Part shown: positions 101 to 6,710 of the stretch, piece by piece
Layout of the letters: each line of letters starts with the position of its first letter
How positions within the stretch are numbered: position 1 is the stretch's first letter
From: Pleurocapsa sp. MO_226.B13
GTDB lineage: Bacteria > Cyanobacteriota > Cyanobacteriia > Cyanobacteriales > Xenococcaceae
NCBI GenBank assembly: GCA_030064795.1
Contig: JASJEI010000365.1
Location: 1-6,906 of the forward strand
Reading direction: 5' to 3'
DNA: 6,906 nucleotides
The notes under the pieces: generated by a model
What the model was told of the DNA's origin: nothing
Databases searched by the model: none
Seen by the model: only the letters and a program-made list of their open reading frames with translations
Made by a program: the position numbers and the translations under genes

Positions 101-355
101 TCAGGGATACTGCTCTCTAATATCTTGTACTTCCTTACTCCACTCAAATATATAGAAAAGTCTCGACTCCCAATCTGACATTAAATGATGCGTGCGATCA
201 CTTTTCCAGCCAGGCGATCGTGATGCTCTACCCACAGACGGAAAATCTTGAATAGTTATCCAAGGCTTGTAGTCTTTTCCCCTACCTTTGCCCCTTCCTT
301 CTTTAACATATCGCTCAAACTTAGCGGTCGTCCAATCGTATCTGCTTCTAGCCAT
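101..355 (-). pseudogene. tnsA: Truncated TnsA, Tn7-like transposase endonuclease subunit (N-terminal part)
   Basis: TnsA is the endonuclease that cuts the 5' strands at Tn7 ends and works with TnsB as a heteromeric transposase. The 84 residues seen from the ATG at 355 match the start of E. coli TnsA as I remember it: a KEGRGKGRGKDY motif (E. coli KEGRGQGHGKDY), PWITIQ, FPSVGR, HHLMSDWE and ends DIREQYP (E. coli DIREQFP). The Glu of SDWE falls at residue 63, the same number as catalytic Glu63 of E. coli TnsA, which favours this ATG over an in-frame one at 370. A TGA at 101-103 stops translation directly after REQYP. The catalytic Asp, Gln and Lys further on, and the C-terminal TnsC-contacting domain, are therefore missing; full TnsA is about 270 residues. 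The same frame stays open for 32 more codons to a TAG at 2-4. The gene reads away from glmS, as tnsA does in Tn7. No good ribosome binding site is visible. It is a pseudogene unless the TGA is a sequencing error. Confidence -1.
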
Positions 356-397
356 GAGAAAACTGCACAATACAGAATTACTATGATTGTACAGCTT

Positions 398-416
398 GAG
401 TTACCAACTTTATTGT
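398..416 (-). repeat. TnsB-type binding site, inner copy
   Basis: The minus strand reads ACAATAAAGTTGGTAACTC. It lies 42 bp upstream of the tnsA ATG at 355, so a TnsB-family protein bound here would sit over or next to the tnsA promoter. I see no fourth good copy further in. Confidence -1.
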
Positions 417-427
417 TAATTTCTCTT

Positions 428-446
428 AAGTTACCAACTTTATTGT
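428..446 (-). repeat. TnsB-type binding site, middle copy
   Basis: The minus strand reads ACAATAAAGTTGGTAACTT, identical to the inner copy over 18 bases. Its spacing is 20 bp to the outer copy and 30 bp to the inner one. Closely packed sites are typical of Tn7R, whereas left ends have widely spaced sites. Confidence -1.
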
Positions 447-447
447 A

Positions 448-466
448 AAGTTACTAACTTTATTGT
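448..466 (-). repeat. TnsB-type binding site, outermost copy
   Basis: The minus strand reads ACAATAAAGTTAGTAACTT. It is the copy nearest the terminus, starting at base 10 of the element, and differs from the two inner copies at one base of the GTTGGTAAC core (GTTAGTAAC). The leading ACAATAAAGT matches the conserved half of Tn7 TnsB sites. It is 20 bp from the next copy. Confidence -1.
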
Positions 467-475
467 CATTCTACA

Positions 476-540
476 TTTATTGTAAATATTTTCTATTTGC
501 TACTCAACAGTGACGCTTTTCGCCAAATTTCTTGGCTGAT
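476..540 (-). other. attTn7-like attachment site at the glmS 3' end
   Basis: This covers the 24 bp between the element terminus and the glmS stop (476-499) plus the last codons of glmS, which encode NLAKSVTVE as in E. coli. In Tn7, TnsD binds this conserved glmS end and directs insertion about 25 bp beyond the stop codon, and the spacing here matches. Bases 476-480 (tttat) are the expected single visible copy of the 5-bp duplication. The binding range is inferred from E. coli Tn7. No terminator hairpin lies between the glmS stop and the element. Confidence -1.
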
Positions 541-2383
541 CGACATCTAAACCTTTGATCGCTGCAATGTGATAAGACAAGATCTGCAAGGGTACAACCG
601 CCAATACGGGAGAAATCAACTCATCTACCTCTGGTACGGTTAAAATATCATCAAAAGTATGGGCTGCTTCGGTAGCATTCATTGCCGTAGTCACGCCGAT
701 CAGACGGGCATCGCGGGCTTTGGCTTCTTGAGCGTTAGAAATTACCTTGTCGTAGACGCTTCCTGGCATAGCTACTGCGACTACAGGTACTGTATTATCC
801 AATAAAGCGATCGGGCCGTGTTTCATTTCCCCTGCGGGATAGGCTTCTGCGTGGATGTAAGAGATTTCTTTGAGTTTTAAGGCACCTTCCAGGGCGATGG
901 GGAAGTTAATTCCTCGTCCAATAAAGATAAAGTCTTCGGTTTCGGTAGTAAATTCGTGGGCTAATTCTTCGATCGCTTCGGCTTGGGTATCTAAAATAGT
1001 CTCGATCTGACTGGGTATGTGGCGTAAGGCTTCAATTATTTCCTCTATTTGGCTGTTGGATATCGTTTGACGACGATAGGCTAAATCTAAAGCCAGGAAA
1101 TAAAAGCTCATGACTTGAGCGATAAAGGTTTTAGTAGCAGCAACGCCAATTTCAATTCCCGCGTGGGTGTCGATAATGCGATCGCAGATTTGAGCAATAC
1201 TACTTTCAGCGCGGTTGGTAATCGCCAGTAGTTTGGCTTGAAATTTTGGTTTTAAATCTGCGCGTCTAGCTCTTTCGGACTCCAGTGCTGCAATGGTGTC
1301 GGCGGTTTCTCCAGATTGGGTAACGCCAATGGTTAAAGTGTGAGGAATTACTGGTTTGGGTGCATAACGAAACTCGGAGGCATAATCAATGGTGGTGGGA
1401 ATACCAGCAATTTGTTCTAAAAGGTATTTACCAACTAAGCCAGCATGCCAACTCGTACCGCAAGCGAGGATTTGAATATGTTCTAAATCGTCAGTGAGAT
1501 TCCCAGATAAACCGAGATTAATGGGACTAAAATTAGGATTTTCATCGGCGTGCCAATTGGGATTGATATAACTATCCAAGCAGTTTCTTACTACTGCTGG
1601 TTGCTCGTAGATTTCCTTGAGCATATAGTGACGGAAACCCTGTTTTTCTACCTGTATGGGATTCCAATCTAGGGTGCGGGGAAAACGAGAAACGCGATCG
1701 CCTGCAAAGCTATAGATTTCTACTCCCAAGGGTGTCAGTCTGGCAATTTCTTGATTTTCTAGATTGAGAATCGTGCGGGTGTGGGGCAATATTGCTGTCA
1801 TATCAGAGGCGCAGAAAAATTCCCCCTGTCCAAAACCCAATACTAGGGGTGCTTGTTGACGAGCCACAATTAATTCGTAGGGATGTTCGGCACTGACTAC
1901 GGCGATCGCAAATGCGCCTTCTAGTTTAGAAATAGTTTTCTGGACAGCTTCCATTAGGGAATTAGAACTGTGCAAAAATATAGTAACTAAATGGGGAATT
2001 ACCTCGGTATCGGTTTCGGAACGAAATTCAATCCCCTTGCTAATCAGTTCTTCTTTGATTTCTAAATAATTTTCGATAATGCCATTTTGCACTACCGCCA
2101 AACTCAGGTCAGAATTTAAGTGTGGATGGGCGTTGTGTTCTTCAGGTTTACCATGAGTTGCCCAACGGGTATGCCCGATGCCTAGTTGTGCTTTATGTTC
2201 ATCTCGTTCTAGTTTTTCTCGCAGATTAAATAACTTCCCCTTGGCTTTGATGCAGTTAATTTTGCCCTCCTCAACTGTCGCTACCCCCGCAGAGTCATAA
2301 CCCCGATATTCTAATCGTTCCAAACCAGCAATTAAAATGTTTGTCGCTGCTTGAGTACCGATATAGCCGACAATTCCACACAT
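500..2383 (-). CDS. glmS: Glutamine--fructose-6-phosphate aminotransferase (isomerizing), GlmS
   Basis: This cytoplasmic enzyme converts fructose-6-phosphate and glutamine to glucosamine-6-phosphate and glutamate, the first step towards UDP-GlcNAc for peptidoglycan and other cell-envelope sugars. Its 627 residues are close to the E. coli 609. The N-terminus MCGIVGYIG supplies the Cys nucleophile of the class II glutamine amidotransferase domain (about 1-220), with HTRWATHG at 71-78 and QNGIIENY at 99-106. Two SIS isomerase domains follow. The first has CGTS at 308-311 and TQSGETADT at 355-363; the second has EGALKLKEISY near 499-509 and AEAYPAGEMKHGP at 512-524. The end AKSVTVE is canonical and intact. 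The start is fixed by the Cys directly after Met; no strong ribosome binding site precedes it. No glmS ribozyme is expected outside Firmicutes and none was recognised. It lies 73 bp downstream of the DUF3172 gene without an obvious terminator between them, so co-transcription is possible. A Tn7-like element sits directly behind its stop. Confidence -1.
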   Translation of the reverse strand: MCGIVGYIGTQAATNILIAGLERLEYRGYDSAGVATVEEGKINCIKAKGKLFNLREKLERDEHKAQLGIGHTRWATHGKPEEHNAHPHLNSDLSLAVVQNGIIENYLEIKEELISKGIEFRSETDTEVIPHLVTIFLHSSNSLMEAVQKTISKLEGAFAIAVVSAEHPYELIVARQQAPLVLGFGQGEFFCASDMTAILPHTRTILNLENQEIARLTPLGVEIYSFAGDRVSRFPRTLDWNPIQVEKQGFRHYMLKEIYEQPAVVRNCLDSYINPNWHADENPNFSPINLGLSGNLTDDLEHIQILACGTSWHAGLVGKYLLEQIAGIPTTIDYASEFRYAPKPVIPHTLTIGVTQSGETADTIAALESERARRADLKPKFQAKLLAITNRAESSIAQICDRIIDTHAGIEIGVAATKTFIAQVMSFYFLALDLAYRRQTISNSQIEEIIEALRHIPSQIETILDTQAEAIEELAHEFTTETEDFIFIGRGINFPIALEGALKLKEISYIHAEAYPAGEMKHGPIALLDNTVPVVAVAMPGSVYDKVISNAQEAKARDARLIGVTTAMNATEAAHTFDDILTVPEVDELISPVLAVVPLQILSYHIAAIKGLDVDQPRNLAKSVTVE

Positions 2384-2456
2384 AATTAAGAGTTGATTGA
2401 TAAATAAATTGTTTAATCGCCTCTAGTTTAGATCGAAAATTTTGAAAGTACCTGTT

Positions 2457-3041
2457 TTAAAAATTATCTGATTCTGGTATTGGGCCAGATTTGCCATTTT
2501 GATTGAGAAATAAATTACCCGCAGAATCGTTTTGATAGACACAGTCAATTTTAGGATTGCCTTCCAAAGGGCCAACGAAGCCAAAAGTGTTCATGCGTCT
2601 TTTACAATCTCTAACCTGTTCCGAACTTACTAGGTTTTGCTGTTCTAGTACTGACCAATTAGTACGTCGTAAAACACATCCAGGCTGCATCCGGGGTTGG
2701 GTGAGATAGACGCTAAAGGGATTGAGAGTCAAAAATACCCTCATATCAGTGACAACAGCACTGGCACCAAATTGCTGACAAACTTCAGGATTGGGGGCTT
2801 TACGGTCGATTTGCAGACTAGAATCAACTGTAGCTAAATTATCCGAACCAGTAGTTAGGTTGAGAGATAATCCAATTACAATACCGATGACAAAAACACT
2901 GGCTAAAACAGCGATTTTTGCCACATCTAGAGGACTTTTTTGATCGGGTGGATTGGGAGTGGAACGATAGTTGTTAGGAGGATCGTAACGATCTACTCGT
3001 TCTCGACTGCGATAATTACCGTTGCGGTTTCTACGGGCCAT
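2457..3041 (-). CDS. DUF3172 domain-containing membrane-anchored protein
   Basis: This 194-residue protein belongs, from memory of the family, to DUF3172, a cyanobacterial family without known function. The first 40 residues are rich in Arg, Asn and Pro (starting MARRNRNGNYRSRERV) and should stay in the cytoplasm. One hydrophobic helix follows at about 41-61. The remaining 130 residues would lie outside the membrane, in the periplasm or thylakoid lumen by the positive-inside rule. This part contains the conserved-looking stretches CQQFGASAVVTDMRVF (88-103), TLNPFSVYLTQPRMQPGC (105-122) and RMNTFGF (149-155). It also holds four Cys residues (88, 122, 146, 167), which could form two disulfides; that is an inference. 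The start is the first ATG with the basic MARRNR beginning, and no clear ribosome binding site is present. It is upstream of glmS on the same strand. No function is assigned. Confidence -1.
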   Translation of the reverse strand: MARRNRNGNYRSRERVDRYDPPNNYRSTPNPPDQKSPLDVAKIAVLASVFVIGIVIGLSLNLTTGSDNLATVDSSLQIDRKAPNPEVCQQFGASAVVTDMRVFLTLNPFSVYLTQPRMQPGCVLRRTNWSVLEQQNLVSSEQVRDCKRRMNTFGFVGPLEGNPKIDCVYQNDSAGNLFLNQNGKSGPIPESDNF

Positions 3042-3133
3042 AATAAGATTACTGATTAGCGATCGATCTAGTACAGTGATAAATTATTTCTAGTTTATCT
3101 TGCCTGAGATAGTAGTTTTTATTTCTGGGACTA

Positions 3134-3162
3134 TTGACTTGGCAAGACAACTTTTTTATTTT
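3134..3162 (+). promoter_or_regulatory. Possible promoter reading towards the tonB-family gene
   Basis: TTGACT at 3134-3139, a 17-bp spacer, then TATTTT at 3157-3162. The -35 and spacer are near consensus, while the -10 matches TATAAT at four of six positions. The -10 lies in the left arm of the 24-bp palindrome. The predicted start near 3169 would leave a leader of about 220 bases before the ATG at 3389, so a closer promoter may exist. This is a pattern match only. Confidence -1.
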
Positions 3163-3180
3163 AGGCGATCGCCTAAAATA
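3157..3180. repeat. 24-bp perfect palindrome centred on a HIP1 octamer
   Basis: The arms TATTTTAGGCGA and TCGCCTAAAATA are exact reverse complements meeting at the centre of GCGATCGC (3165-3172). No T-run follows the palindrome on either strand, so it is unlikely to be an intrinsic terminator. It could be an operator for a dimeric regulator acting on both flanking promoter candidates, or a chance extension of a HIP1 site. Confidence -1.
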
Positions 3181-3202
3181 GCAGATAAGTGTATTCTGTC
3201 AA
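3175..3202 (-). promoter_or_regulatory. Possible promoter for the DUF3172 gene (and perhaps glmS)
   Basis: On the minus strand there is a consensus TTGACA (3202-3197), a 16-bp spacer and TATTTT (3180-3175). The -10 lies in the right arm of the palindrome, mirroring the plus-strand candidate. The predicted start near 3168 would give a leader of about 127 bases to the ATG at 3041. This is a pattern match only. Confidence -1.
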
Positions 3203-3388
3203 TTGTTTATCGCTAAATTTGTTAATCTTAGAGTCAAGTAAAATTTTTATGTAATCTAATATAAAACAAAAATAAATTTTAATCTATTCAGCCTTGAATC
3301 TAGGGATGAATCACGATTTACCCCGACAAGATCTAGCTTTTATAAGATCCCAGTTTTTGTCCAAGTAGTTGGAAAAATGGTATGAGCA

Positions 3389-4360
3389 ATGACCAATCTA
3401 AAACCAGCACCTCAGCAAGATCGAGTCCGAGAAACTAAAACTAAGAACTATCGCGATTTTCGTTCTTTACACCTGTTTTTATTTATCCTGGCTTCGGCAA
3501 TTGTTCACGGTTTGATTTTGCTGCTTTTGGCTCGATACGAAGCTACTAAACTCGCACGAGAGGAAGTAGATCCCAAACCAATTGAATTTGTAGTCGTTCC
3601 TCCTGAAGAAAGCAGCGAAACACCACCAGAAACCGATAAACAAGCTAATGAAAATTCTGTCGCTCAACCCAATGACGAGCCGAAAAATACCACCCCCTCT
3701 GAGGAAATTGGTGAAGATTCCGTGTCTACTTCACCACCTCAGCCCGCACCCGCACCAGTACCGACTCCTCAAGTAGCCACACAACCCGCACCTACCCCCG
3801 AACCCGCATCTACCCCCGAACCGACAGAACCTCCAACTAACGAAGTGATGTCTGGTTCTGATGCTCCTGTTGCTTCACCTCAACCCACGGAACAAGAGCC
3901 AGTCGCGACTCGTCTGCCACCCGAACCAGAACCATCTCCTCCTGGTGGTAGTGCTGCGGATTTATTGGGAGGAGACTACAAAAGAACCCTAGCTGACGGG
4001 GGAGCAGATGCTTTTTTTAGTCCTGAAGCCTTAGCTCATGAAACTGTTCTCAATCCAGGTCAAATAGATGCTCTCAAAGGTCTCGATCTCAGTGCTTATT
4101 TTGCCGAAATTAAACGACGGGTAAAGAGTAACTGGCATCCATCCTATTCATCCCAAGAGCTTACGACTTATTTGACTTTTGATATCCAAAAAAATGGTCA
4201 AATTACAGGGTTAAGAGTAACCCAAAGCTCTGGTTCAGAAAAACTAGACCGCGAGTCCCTCACAGCAGTTCAAAATTCTGCCCCTTTCGATCCTCTTCCT
4301 GCTGAATTTCCCTTGGAAGCATTAGAGATTGAATTTAGTTTTAATATATATCTTTATTAA
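3389..4360 (+). CDS. TonB-family energy transducer protein
   Basis: TonB-type proteins span the periplasm and pass energy from an ExbB/ExbD proton channel in the inner membrane to outer-membrane receptors. The 323 residues show the standard layout. A short cytoplasmic N-terminus precedes one membrane helix (about 27-49) containing Ser36 and His40, the SxxxH spacing needed in E. coli TonB for coupling to ExbB. A Pro/Glu/Thr-rich periplasmic spacer (about 60-190) follows, with runs such as PAPAPVPTPQ and repeated TPEPA/TPEPT units. A TonB C-terminal domain (about 232-323) has WHP, an LTFDIQKNGQITGLRVTQSSG strand pair ending in SSG (281-283), LDRESL and a final FSFNIYLY. The ATG at 3389 is the first in frame after a TGA at 3383. 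The ExbB-family gene follows after 64 bp on the same strand, supporting a shared role. TolA-like proteins share this layout, so the substrate and exact subfamily (TonB versus TolA) are open. Confidence -1.
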   Translation: MTNLKPAPQQDRVRETKTKNYRDFRSLHLFLFILASAIVHGLILLLLARYEATKLAREEVDPKPIEFVVVPPEESSETPPETDKQANENSVAQPNDEPKNTTPSEEIGEDSVSTSPPQPAPAPVPTPQVATQPAPTPEPASTPEPTEPPTNEVMSGSDAPVASPQPTEQEPVATRLPPEPEPSPPGGSAADLLGGDYKRTLADGGADAFFSPEALAHETVLNPGQIDALKGLDLSAYFAEIKRRVKSNWHPSYSSQELTTYLTFDIQKNGQITGLRVTQSSGSEKLDRESLTAVQNSAPFDPLPAEFPLEALEIEFSFNIYLY

Positions 4361-4424
4361 TAAGATAGCTGGAGAGCGATGAGTTTAAGTCGCTCGCTGA
4401 CAACAACAAATCTGAAGAAAATTT

Positions 4425-5069
4425 ATGGAAACTATTTGGCAACTATTCAGAAGTGGTGGAGTGGTTATGTATCCCTTGTTGGGACTATCAATCTACTCGG
4501 TGGCAATGATTTTAGAGCGATCGCTTTTTTGGCTCAGAACCTCCCGCGAACAAGACAAGATAATTAAACAATTATTAAATCTTTACCGCGATGATACCGA
4601 AGCTGCCAAAGTAATGCTGCAACGTCATCTTAATCTATCTCTTGCCCGGATTTTCTTGGTTGCTTTATCTCTCAAAAGATCTACTCCCCAAAAATTCAAG
4701 TTGGCATTAGAGACTGCTGCTCAAGCAGAAGTCCCTGTCTTGAAACGTTTTAGCAATTCTTTTGAAACGGTGATTAGTGTTGCTCCTCTCTTGGGCTTGT
4801 TGGGGACGGTAATTGGTTTGATTACCTCATTGTCTTCTTTAAAATTAGGCGATATAGAATCATCCCAAGCAGCAGGGGTTACGGGAGGTATTGGCGAAGC
4901 CTTGACTTCCACCGCAGCGGGTTTAATCATTGCGATCGTCACTCTGTTTTTTGCCAGTATTTTTCGGGGACTTTATCTACAACAAATTGCCCTAATTCAA
5001 GAAGTCGGCGGACAGTTAGAACTAATTCACTTAGATAAAAGCGATCGCCAAGAAGTTTATACCCAATAA
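4425..5069 (+). CDS. exbB: MotA/TolQ/ExbB-family proton channel protein
   Basis: This family forms the inner-membrane proton channel that drives TonB or TolA. The 214 residues fit the family. The start METIWQLFRSGGVVMYPLLG resembles ExbB N-termini, with a first helix at about 13-30 followed by Glu31-Arg32, a cytoplasmic stretch at 33-112, a second helix at about 115-138 (VISVAPLLGLLGTVIGL) and a third at about 158-180 (EALTSTAAGLIIAI). Thr128, Glu158 and Thr163 align with the conserved polar pore residues of E. coli ExbB (Thr148, Glu176, Thr181). A purine-rich stretch GAAGAAAA about 5-12 bases before the ATG may serve as ribosome binding site. It lies 64 bp behind the TonB-family gene, with no terminator seen between them. 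The usual third partner, ExbD or TolR, does not follow. ExbB rather than TolQ is favoured by the TonB-like neighbour and length. Confidence -1.
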   Translation: METIWQLFRSGGVVMYPLLGLSIYSVAMILERSLFWLRTSREQDKIIKQLLNLYRDDTEAAKVMLQRHLNLSLARIFLVALSLKRSTPQKFKLALETAAQAEVPVLKRFSNSFETVISVAPLLGLLGTVIGLITSLSSLKLGDIESSQAAGVTGGIGEALTSTAAGLIIAIVTLFFASIFRGLYLQQIALIQEVGGQLELIHLDKSDRQEVYTQ

Positions 5070-5145
5070 AAAAAGCTCAGAGCAAAACTTTAATTTTCCT
5101 TCTCCATAAACCTAAAATAAATAGGAGCGACTATTTGTTACATTG
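5070..5145. other. Short spacer after exbB, no clear terminator
   Basis: An A-rich stretch with a small GCTC/GAGC repeat at the start that is too tight to form a useful hairpin. AGGAG at 5123-5127 is 18 bases before the next ATG, further than usual for a ribosome binding site. No exbD reading frame is present. Confidence -1.
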
Positions 5146-5313
5146 ATGAGCGATAGTTATTATGACTTTACTCTAAAACTCGATAACATCAAACACTTAT
5201 TCCAAGACCCAGAATTCGATCTTTTTCTGCCACAGACAGATTATACTTCTGGGATCGAGCGTATTGTTAACGAACTCAAACCAACATCTTTAACAGACAA
5301 AGAACGAAGCTAA
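5146..5313 (+). CDS. Small hypothetical protein, possibly a truncated gene start
   Basis: A 55-residue ORF starting MSDSYYDFTLKLDNIKHLF, containing DPEFDLFLPQTDYTSGIERI and ending DKERS at a TAA (5311-5313). It is acidic with no membrane helix or signal peptide. From memory it resembles the first 45-50 residues of a longer cyanobacterial hypothetical membrane protein family (beginning YYEFTL, with a SGIE motif, about 170-180 residues), but I cannot verify this. If so, the gene is broken here. One base beyond the TAA a second short frame (5315-5374) begins MAIPEIKNFLDIMF in the +1 frame, as a frameshifted continuation might, and then also ends. It may be a genuine small gene, but a decayed remnant is at least as likely. 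It lies 76 bp downstream of exbB on the same strand. Confidence -1.
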   Translation: MSDSYYDFTLKLDNIKHLFQDPEFDLFLPQTDYTSGIERIVNELKPTSLTDKERS

Positions 5314-5420
5314 TATGGCAATACCTGAAATTAAAAATTTTCTCGACATCATGTTCAATATAGTTGCTTTTTAGTAAAAAGTTTTGTCTGATTTATCGTC
5401 TATTTTCTCTCTGTAAATCC

Positions 5421-5444
5421 AAAAAAAAAGCGATCGAGATCGCT
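5421..5444 (-). terminator. Rho-independent terminator of the nucleoside transporter gene
   Basis: On the minus strand, AGCGAT, a CTCG loop and ATCGCT form a 6-bp stem with a four-base loop (5444-5429), followed by nine Ts (5429-5421 region). It lies about 60 bp past the stop of the nucleoside transporter gene. On the plus strand no T-run follows, so it should act in one direction only. Confidence -1.
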
Positions 5445-5504
5445 CTGTCGTATATTATGTTGTGTAATAACAAACTAAGCTATTAGATAAAGAAAAGCTA
5501 TCGA

Positions 5505-6710
5505 TTACAGTAGCATTCCCGTTACACAAGCTGTCAAAAAACAAGCCAAAGAACCAGCAATCATTGCTCGCAATCCTAAAACAGCCAAATCCTGCTGTCG
5601 AGAGGGGGCGATCGCACTAAGTCCCCCAATTTGAATGCCAATCGAACCTAAATGGGAAAAACCACACAAAGCATAGGTAGCAATAATCGTAGTTCTTTGG
5701 GAAAGATTGGGCATCATCTCTTTCAAATCCAGATAGGCAATAAATTCATTGAAAATAATTTTTTTTCCCAATAAAATCCCTACAGATAAACAGTCAGCTA
5801 AAGGTATGCCCATCAACCAAGCAAAAGGAAACATCAAATAGGACAAAATCCATTCTAAAGATAGCTGAGGTAAACCTACTTGCTCTCCCATCCAGCCCAA
5901 AATCGCATTAACTAAAGCCAATAATCCTAAAAAGGCGATTAACATCGCTCCGACATTAAGGGCTAATTTCAAACCATCTAATGCTCCCGTCGTAATCGCA
6001 TCGATCGCATTGACATAAATCCGTTTAACTTTAACTTCGATTTTCCCCTTAGTTTCGGGTTTAGCCGTCTCTGGATAAAAGATTTTTGCCATTGCTAAAG
6101 CTGCTGGTGCAGACATTACCGAAGCTGCAATCAAGTGTTCTGCTGGTATGCCAAAAGAAATATAGGCAGCCATGACTCCCCCAGCAATGGTGGCGAAACC
6201 GCCAGTCATCACTGCATGGAGTTCCGATACTGTTAGAGTAGGTAGATAGGGTTTAATTAATAATGGTGCTTCTGTAAGTCCGACAAAAATATTAGCAGCA
6301 CAACTGAGAGACTCCGCACCAGAAGTTTTCATCGTTCGCATCATTATCCATCCCAAAGCCCCGACAACTCTCGGTAAAATCTGGTAGTGATAGAGTAAAG
6401 AAATAAAAGCCGAGAAAAAGATAATCGTCGGTAGAATTTTAAACGCTAGAAAATGTTCCTCAAATCCATCTCCAAAGACAAATTTTGCCCCCGCATCGGA
6501 AAAATCAAGAAATTGTCTGACGCGATCGCCTAGAAATTGAAACAGCGTCAATCCGACTGTAGTTTTGAGAATCAAAAACCCTAGAACTAATTGTAATCCA
6601 ATTCCCCAAAGTACCGTAGACCAGCGGATTTTTGCCCGATTGACGGAACACAGATATCCACACGCTATAAAAACTATTAATCCTAGTAAAGAAATTAGTC
6701 GTTGGTTCAT
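5505..6710 (-). CDS. Concentrative nucleoside transporter (CNT/NupC family)
   Basis: CNT proteins import nucleosides across the inner membrane with a Na+ or H+ gradient. The 401-residue length matches bacterial members. An N-terminal helix pair (about 5-50) precedes a gate-like region. The core carries the signature GAESLSCAANIFVGLTEAPL (131-150), then SELHAVMTGGFATIAGGV (162-179), NEFIAY (321-326) and ALCGFSHLGSIGIQIGG (347-363). Compared with Vibrio cholerae CNT, Thr146 and Glu147 keep the TE of its GQTE motif, Glu322 corresponds to Glu332, Phe351 to Phe366 and Ser356 to Ser371. However, Gln154 is replaced by Leu145 and Asn368 by His353, so substrate preference may differ from typical family members. 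The ATG at 6708-6710 gives a family-like N-terminus; no strong ribosome binding site precedes it. A terminator lies downstream at 5421-5444. Family assignment is firm; the substrate is not. Confidence -1.
   Translation of the reverse strand: MNQRLISLLGLIVFIACGYLCSVNRAKIRWSTVLWGIGLQLVLGFLILKTTVGLTLFQFLGDRVRQFLDFSDAGAKFVFGDGFEEHFLAFKILPTIIFFSAFISLLYHYQILPRVVGALGWIMMRTMKTSGAESLSCAANIFVGLTEAPLLIKPYLPTLTVSELHAVMTGGFATIAGGVMAAYISFGIPAEHLIAASVMSAPAALAMAKIFYPETAKPETKGKIEVKVKRIYVNAIDAITTGALDGLKLALNVGAMLIAFLGLLALVNAILGWMGEQVGLPQLSLEWILSYLMFPFAWLMGIPLADCLSVGILLGKKIIFNEFIAYLDLKEMMPNLSQRTTIIATYALCGFSHLGSIGIQIGGLSAIAPSRQQDLAVLGLRAMIAGSLACFLTACVTGMLL

Follow-up and report, generated by a model that had tools for sequence, protein, structure and literature searches.

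What occupies the stretch downstream of glmS in the DNA of Pleurocapsa sp. MO_226.B13 considered here (6,906 nucleotides, henceforth the window), and to what kind of mobile element does it belong? The original prediction read it as a Tn7-like transposon inserted 24 bp behind glmS, and the terminus, the recognition sites, the spacing and the match to TnsA (PDB 1f1z, E 5.4e-22) all bear this out: positions 106-475 are confirmed, at the level of sequence, as the right end of a Tn7-like element lying 24 bp behind the glmS stop codon. The features of this end, of its neighbouring gene and of the insertion sequence (IS) that abuts it are collected in Table 1.

Table 1. Features of the window at and around the element end behind glmS.
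Feature	Position	Strand	Evidence
Terminal part of a ~1.3 kb IS, cut by the contig end	1..105	+	Dispersed copies, transposase frame, terminus, DDE_Tnp_1 for the L122 copy
Start of tnsA; 83 codons intact, gene interrupted in codon 84	106..355	-	PDB 1f1z, E 5.4e-22; 91.9% identical to TnsA of Waterburya (86 positions)
TnsB-type site 3	398..416	-	19-bp site; spacing 20 and 30 bp, like Waterburya L006
TnsB-type site 2	428..446	-	19-bp site, sequence
TnsB-type site 1	448..466	-	19-bp site, sequence
Right terminus TGTAGAATGACAATAAAG	458..475	-	Sequence; strict string only behind glmS across 80 loci
tttat, candidate 5-bp target duplication	476..480	within spacer	One copy visible, other element end outside the window
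Spacer between glmS stop and element, 24 bp	476..499	-	Sequence; 23-26 bp at the 11/79 best-scoring loci
glmS (627 aa), attachment-site gene	500..2383	-	SIS and GATase Pfam domains; relatives at 80 loci, best 90% identical

The TAG of glmS occupies positions 502-500 and the terminal TGT of the element positions 475-473, with a gap of exactly 24 bp between them (499-476). Counted from the TGT terminus, ACAATAAAG begins at base 10, and the start of tnsA lies 120 bp into the element. We fetched the right end of the E. coli Tn7 (TGTGGGCGGACAATAAAG) and found the same layout, namely a TGT terminus, ACAATAAAG at base 10, repeated sites, and tnsA at the glmS-side end, its start being 134 bp in; the end stands 25 bp from glmS in Tn7 as against 24 bp in the window. 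The two are unlike in that their recognition sites diverge outside ACAATAAAGT. TnsB-type sites with up to three mismatches number three in the window, versus none in 200 dinucleotide shuffles. The Tn7-like hallmark of a TGT terminus combined with repeated TnsB-type sites is therefore present in the window, at one end of the element, and the expectations of a Tn7-style terminus, of repeats running inwards from it, and of the Tn7 homing distance have all held up. Farther along, positions 2457-6710 of the window are ordinary, with genes for a DUF3172 protein, a TonB-like protein, a MotA/TolQ/ExbB protein and a nucleoside transporter.

We examined how such ends are distributed in a sample of 80 cyanobacterial glmS loci, which comprises 2,715,254 bases when both strands are counted. 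The strict string TGT-N6-ACAATAAAG occurs six times in these bases, and all six occurrences lie 23-24 bp behind glmS. A score over 27 positions of the end reached at least 19 at 11 of 79 loci, always 23-26 bp from glmS, and the remaining 68 score 18 or less; L070 was left out of this scoring, its glmS being cut by the contig end. Two loci with a score of 17 (L039 and L075) do carry tnsA behind glmS, and the score therefore misses some occupied sites. In total, tnsA was found at seven of the 80 loci. The comparison with glmS loci of related strains, as originally proposed, gave the anticipated result: the close relatives L001-L004 have no such end behind glmS. The strict placement of the ends behind glmS, together with their absence from these four loci, therefore marks the feature as an insertion and not a part of the glmS region itself.

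The identification of tnsA follows from the PDB match, in which the 84-residue frame aligns without gaps with residues 1-84 of Tn7 TnsA. Pfam and NCBIfam returned no match for this short 84-aa fragment; the Pfam model for the TnsA N-terminal domain covers full-length relatives only from residue 73 onward. The fragment retains Glu63, which we take to be one of the TnsA active-site residues, and the further ones, presumably Asp114, Gln130 and Lys132, all lie past the break. For the 83 codons, the dN/dS values are 0.046 relative to Waterburya and 0.078 relative to the genome G215; selection thus acted on tnsA through most of its past, and its break is probably young. The claim that tnsA reads away from the end thus stands for its start and 83 codons, but the gene is broken in codon 84 by an IS that had been missed. 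The reading frame runs to a stop at 103-101, inside the IS end. Positions 1-84 on the plus strand encode the last 27 residues of the IS transposase, as they do in dispersed copies, and positions 1-104 match copies that do not adjoin tnsA (96% in G001:C62, 87% in G003:C229, and others), the IS being dispersed across other cyanobacterial genomes. In L122 a complete copy (1693-3015) is bounded by matching inverted ends and, as read, apparently flanked by the 7-bp duplication TTACCGA; its transposase matches DDE_Tnp_1 at 4.8e-5, just above the family cut-off. The idea that positions 1-105 represent tnsA or another transposon gene was dropped because they match these dispersed copies; the tnsA of the window is evidently interrupted by the IS.

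Using the terminal 475 bp as a query against 388 genomes from the order of G001 (Waterburya KI4), we obtained matches in 50, many of them only via the IS part or short repeats. The best matches to the element itself are in Waterburya KI4 (89% DNA identity over 371 bp) and in G215 (88%). In a tree of TnsA N-termini with 30 rows (the window plus 29 of 39 hits, with nine pieces shorter than 80 aa and the duplicate L024 left out; L162 and L179 represent one gene), the window pairs with Waterburya at a support of 98/91, and G215 joins next with a weaker 96/79. This TnsA groups with glmS elements that bear Cascade, and other members of the wider clade are seen without Cas genes. A search of the PLSDB plasmids with the Waterburya TnsA gave 504 records, all below 60% identity and no close copy among them.

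The surroundings of these relatives support the original suspicion of a CRISPR-associated kinship, as the two nearest both come with I-B Cascade genes. In Waterburya, one stretch (L006) carries tnsA, tnsB and the start of tnsC, and another (L089) the remainder of tnsC and a tniQ that an insertion with two transposase-like frames has divided, as well as cas6/Cmx6 and the beginning of cas8a1/Cmx1; the cas6 and this part of cas8 are the only Cas genes seen in Waterburya, where a search for a full TnsD found none. In G215, contig C131 carries tnsA and tnsB along with a tnsC and a tniQ that a deletion has fused, and contig C18 carries cas6-cas8-cas7-cas5, a TnsD of 624 aa (Pfam TnsD, 9e-122) and five copies of the CRISPR repeat. 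In each of the two genomes, the two contigs would join into one element, and both elements are damaged. On the C18 contig no left end was found. Past the TnsD gene on C18 (L215, L216), a gene cluster encodes a phage-tail sheath protein together with an eCIS_core protein; it is an extracellular contractile injection system and the probable cargo of the element. The terms Tn7-like and contractile injection occur together in three papers.

A review presents the type I-B1 CAST as a close Tn7 relative in which a glmS-targeting TnsD is accompanied by a TniQ working with Cascade I-B, and as found in nature only in cyanobacteria (PMC11406308); glmS is also given as the homing site of the CAST I-B TnsD in a survey paper (PMC10293859). 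With this type (AvCAST, Tn7743) the window's element has in common the glmS attachment site and a cyanobacterial host (PMC11406308), the glmS insertion that marks the type being found here 24 bp past the glmS stop, and its nearest relatives carry tnsA, tnsB, tnsC, tniQ and Cascade I-B, with TnsD in G215. In contrast to the type as described, the window shows only a right end and the IS-cut stump of tnsA. Tn7 differs from the relatives of the window in not being described with Cascade, which they carry. The type I-B2 and I-D CASTs are likewise cyanobacterial and have two TniQ-family proteins, but they use tRNA-gene sites and a fused TnsA-TnsB (PMC11406308), whereas the window has glmS as its site, and its relatives (L006 and L013) encode TnsA and TnsB separately. 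Because the nearest relatives, Waterburya KI4 and G215, carry tns and I-B Cascade genes, the element is most likely a type I-B1 CAST of the AvCAST kind or its leftover. We accordingly hold it to be quite probable that positions 106-475 form the right end of a Tn7-like transposon that homes to glmS and belongs to the type I-B1 CAST lineage, and that an IS later cut its tnsA. The window has no element gene beyond the tnsA stump, and we infer the rest of the element, including its Cascade genes, from these relatives.

A whole relative is found in G365. It is an element of 33,937 bp, with its right end 25 bp behind glmS, which encodes tnsA-B-C-tniQ, cas6-8-7-5 and a 635-aa TnsD and has five CRISPR repeat copies, one of them 68% alike; its left end bears inverted sites, and ATTGT is present on both sides as a 5-bp duplication. 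This is the anatomy that the review gives for the type I-B1 CAST. A regular-expression search for a left end with an exact duplication in six genomes found none. With a fuzzy site search, inverted sites were seen to cluster in G365 and G074 but in none of the other four. Only G365 also has an exact 5-bp duplication; in G074 the base pairs outside the end-like sequence do not match. The left end was not recognised in the 53-120 kb examined in G162, G082, G355 and G177. In G365 (L184, from ~16563) a second right end, TGTACAACAATAATAAAGTC, comes directly after the left end and ATTGT; two Tn7-like elements are apparently in tandem behind this one glmS.

By analogy to Tn7 and AvCAST, the steps of transposition we infer start with the binding of TnsD to the end of glmS; TnsC and the TnsA/TnsB transposase, recruited by TnsD, would then have placed the element 24 bp behind glmS in one orientation, with the tnsA side facing glmS. 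The three 19-bp sites would be where TnsB binds, and RNA-guided jumps to other places would be the task of Cascade and a second TniQ. The ~1.3 kb IS would later have inserted into codon 84 of tnsA, recently, judging by the conserved tnsA fragment. With the IS in codon 84, the window copy can therefore supply no full TnsA, and it should not excise alone unless TnsA comes from elsewhere.

The tnsA being cut by an IS, the element may therefore be broken or partly lost. One alternative is that a deletion, perhaps an IS-driven one, has removed everything except the end, the tnsA stump and the IS; such a remnant would represent the preferred reading at a later stage, with the same origin, and we regard it as possible though on the unlikely side. 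Such remnants are frequent behind glmS. For instance, L005 has an element end and a few codons of tnsA, and L129 (2298-2743, in G170) has a 446-bp mini-element with both ends of 28 bp, 86% complementary, between which an internal deletion has left ~31 tnsA codons. This mini-element is flanked by TTAAT and TTATT (4/5 alike), and besides its TnsA stump no other TnsA and no TnsD were found in G170. In Hyella patelloides (L011, 11894-12130 onward) a right end is joined to a 35-codon piece of tnsB. Furthermore, TnsC was matched in five of nine genomes with such ends, and the other four have no match. On the other hand, the tnsA fragment of the window is well conserved up to the break, as expected of a young one, and a simple IS insertion requires no deletion. 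The original prediction had named, among what would count against it, the presence of the 1-475 sequence behind glmS in strains without any transposon genes. This test is not a clean one: related ends with no full transposon gene beside them do occur (L005, L129 and L011), but they look like remnants of the same elements and not like a host feature. Other copies are also damaged, with the tnsA frame split near codon 55 in L008 and L128 and cas8 cut in L013, and decay appears to be common in this group of elements. Two side observations concern the same loci: L011 has a type III-A csm3 gene farther along, and in L013 a shortened CAST TnsD gene (10557-11386) adjoins a DDE transposase fragment, with a later TnsD piece at 11643-11858 of the contig.

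A plain, CRISPR-free glmS-homing element of Tn7-like type, with an end that merely resembles that of a CAST and homing by TnsD alone, has in its favour some relatives in which no Cascade gene was matched. In a comparison of 44 stretches with queries supplied by L128, all four Cascade genes were matched in L128, L164, L167, L170 and L171, three in L133 up to the end of the stretch, and cas6 only in L169. In the same TnsA clade, L165, L168 and L024/L090 (beside glmS) and L166 (with no glmS in the stretch) have tnsA-B-C and tniQ with no Cas match in the stretch fetched. Cascade thus seems to be the rule in this clade, though one with exceptions, and it is chiefly on this account that the CAST assignment calls for caution. 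However, these loci are farther off in the TnsA tree, and the nearest two rows whose surroundings are known (L006 and L127/G215) both accompany I-B Cascade genes, and we consider a plain element improbable. Weaker still, to the point of being very improbable, is that the tnsA-IS junction arose by misassembly at a repeat and that tnsA is in reality uninterrupted: the contig does break inside the IS, only 105 bp into a dispersed repeat where assemblers can err, but the junction falls at position 105, exactly at the IS terminus known from other copies, as expected of a real insertion.

Read as a glmS-homing insertion of the type I-B1 CAST lineage, the element of the window belongs to a known family and is ordinary within it; it adds one more glmS site occupied by this lineage, here with an IS in tnsA. 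Its relatives outrank it as material for delimiting the ends and the smallest substrates of this CAST type, namely the 33.9-kb whole element with both ends and a duplication, the 446-bp mini-element, and the tandem ends. It is conceivable, if rather doubtful, that I-B1 CASTs of Pleurocapsa-type cyanobacteria spin off non-autonomous forms, such as elements with a dead transposase and mini-elements, with that of the window among them; the term miniature was not met among the listed matches in the literature on Tn7-like elements and glmS. If this were true, mini-elements like the 446-bp one of G170, with both ends retained, would occupy the glmS site and could be moved in trans by an intact copy.
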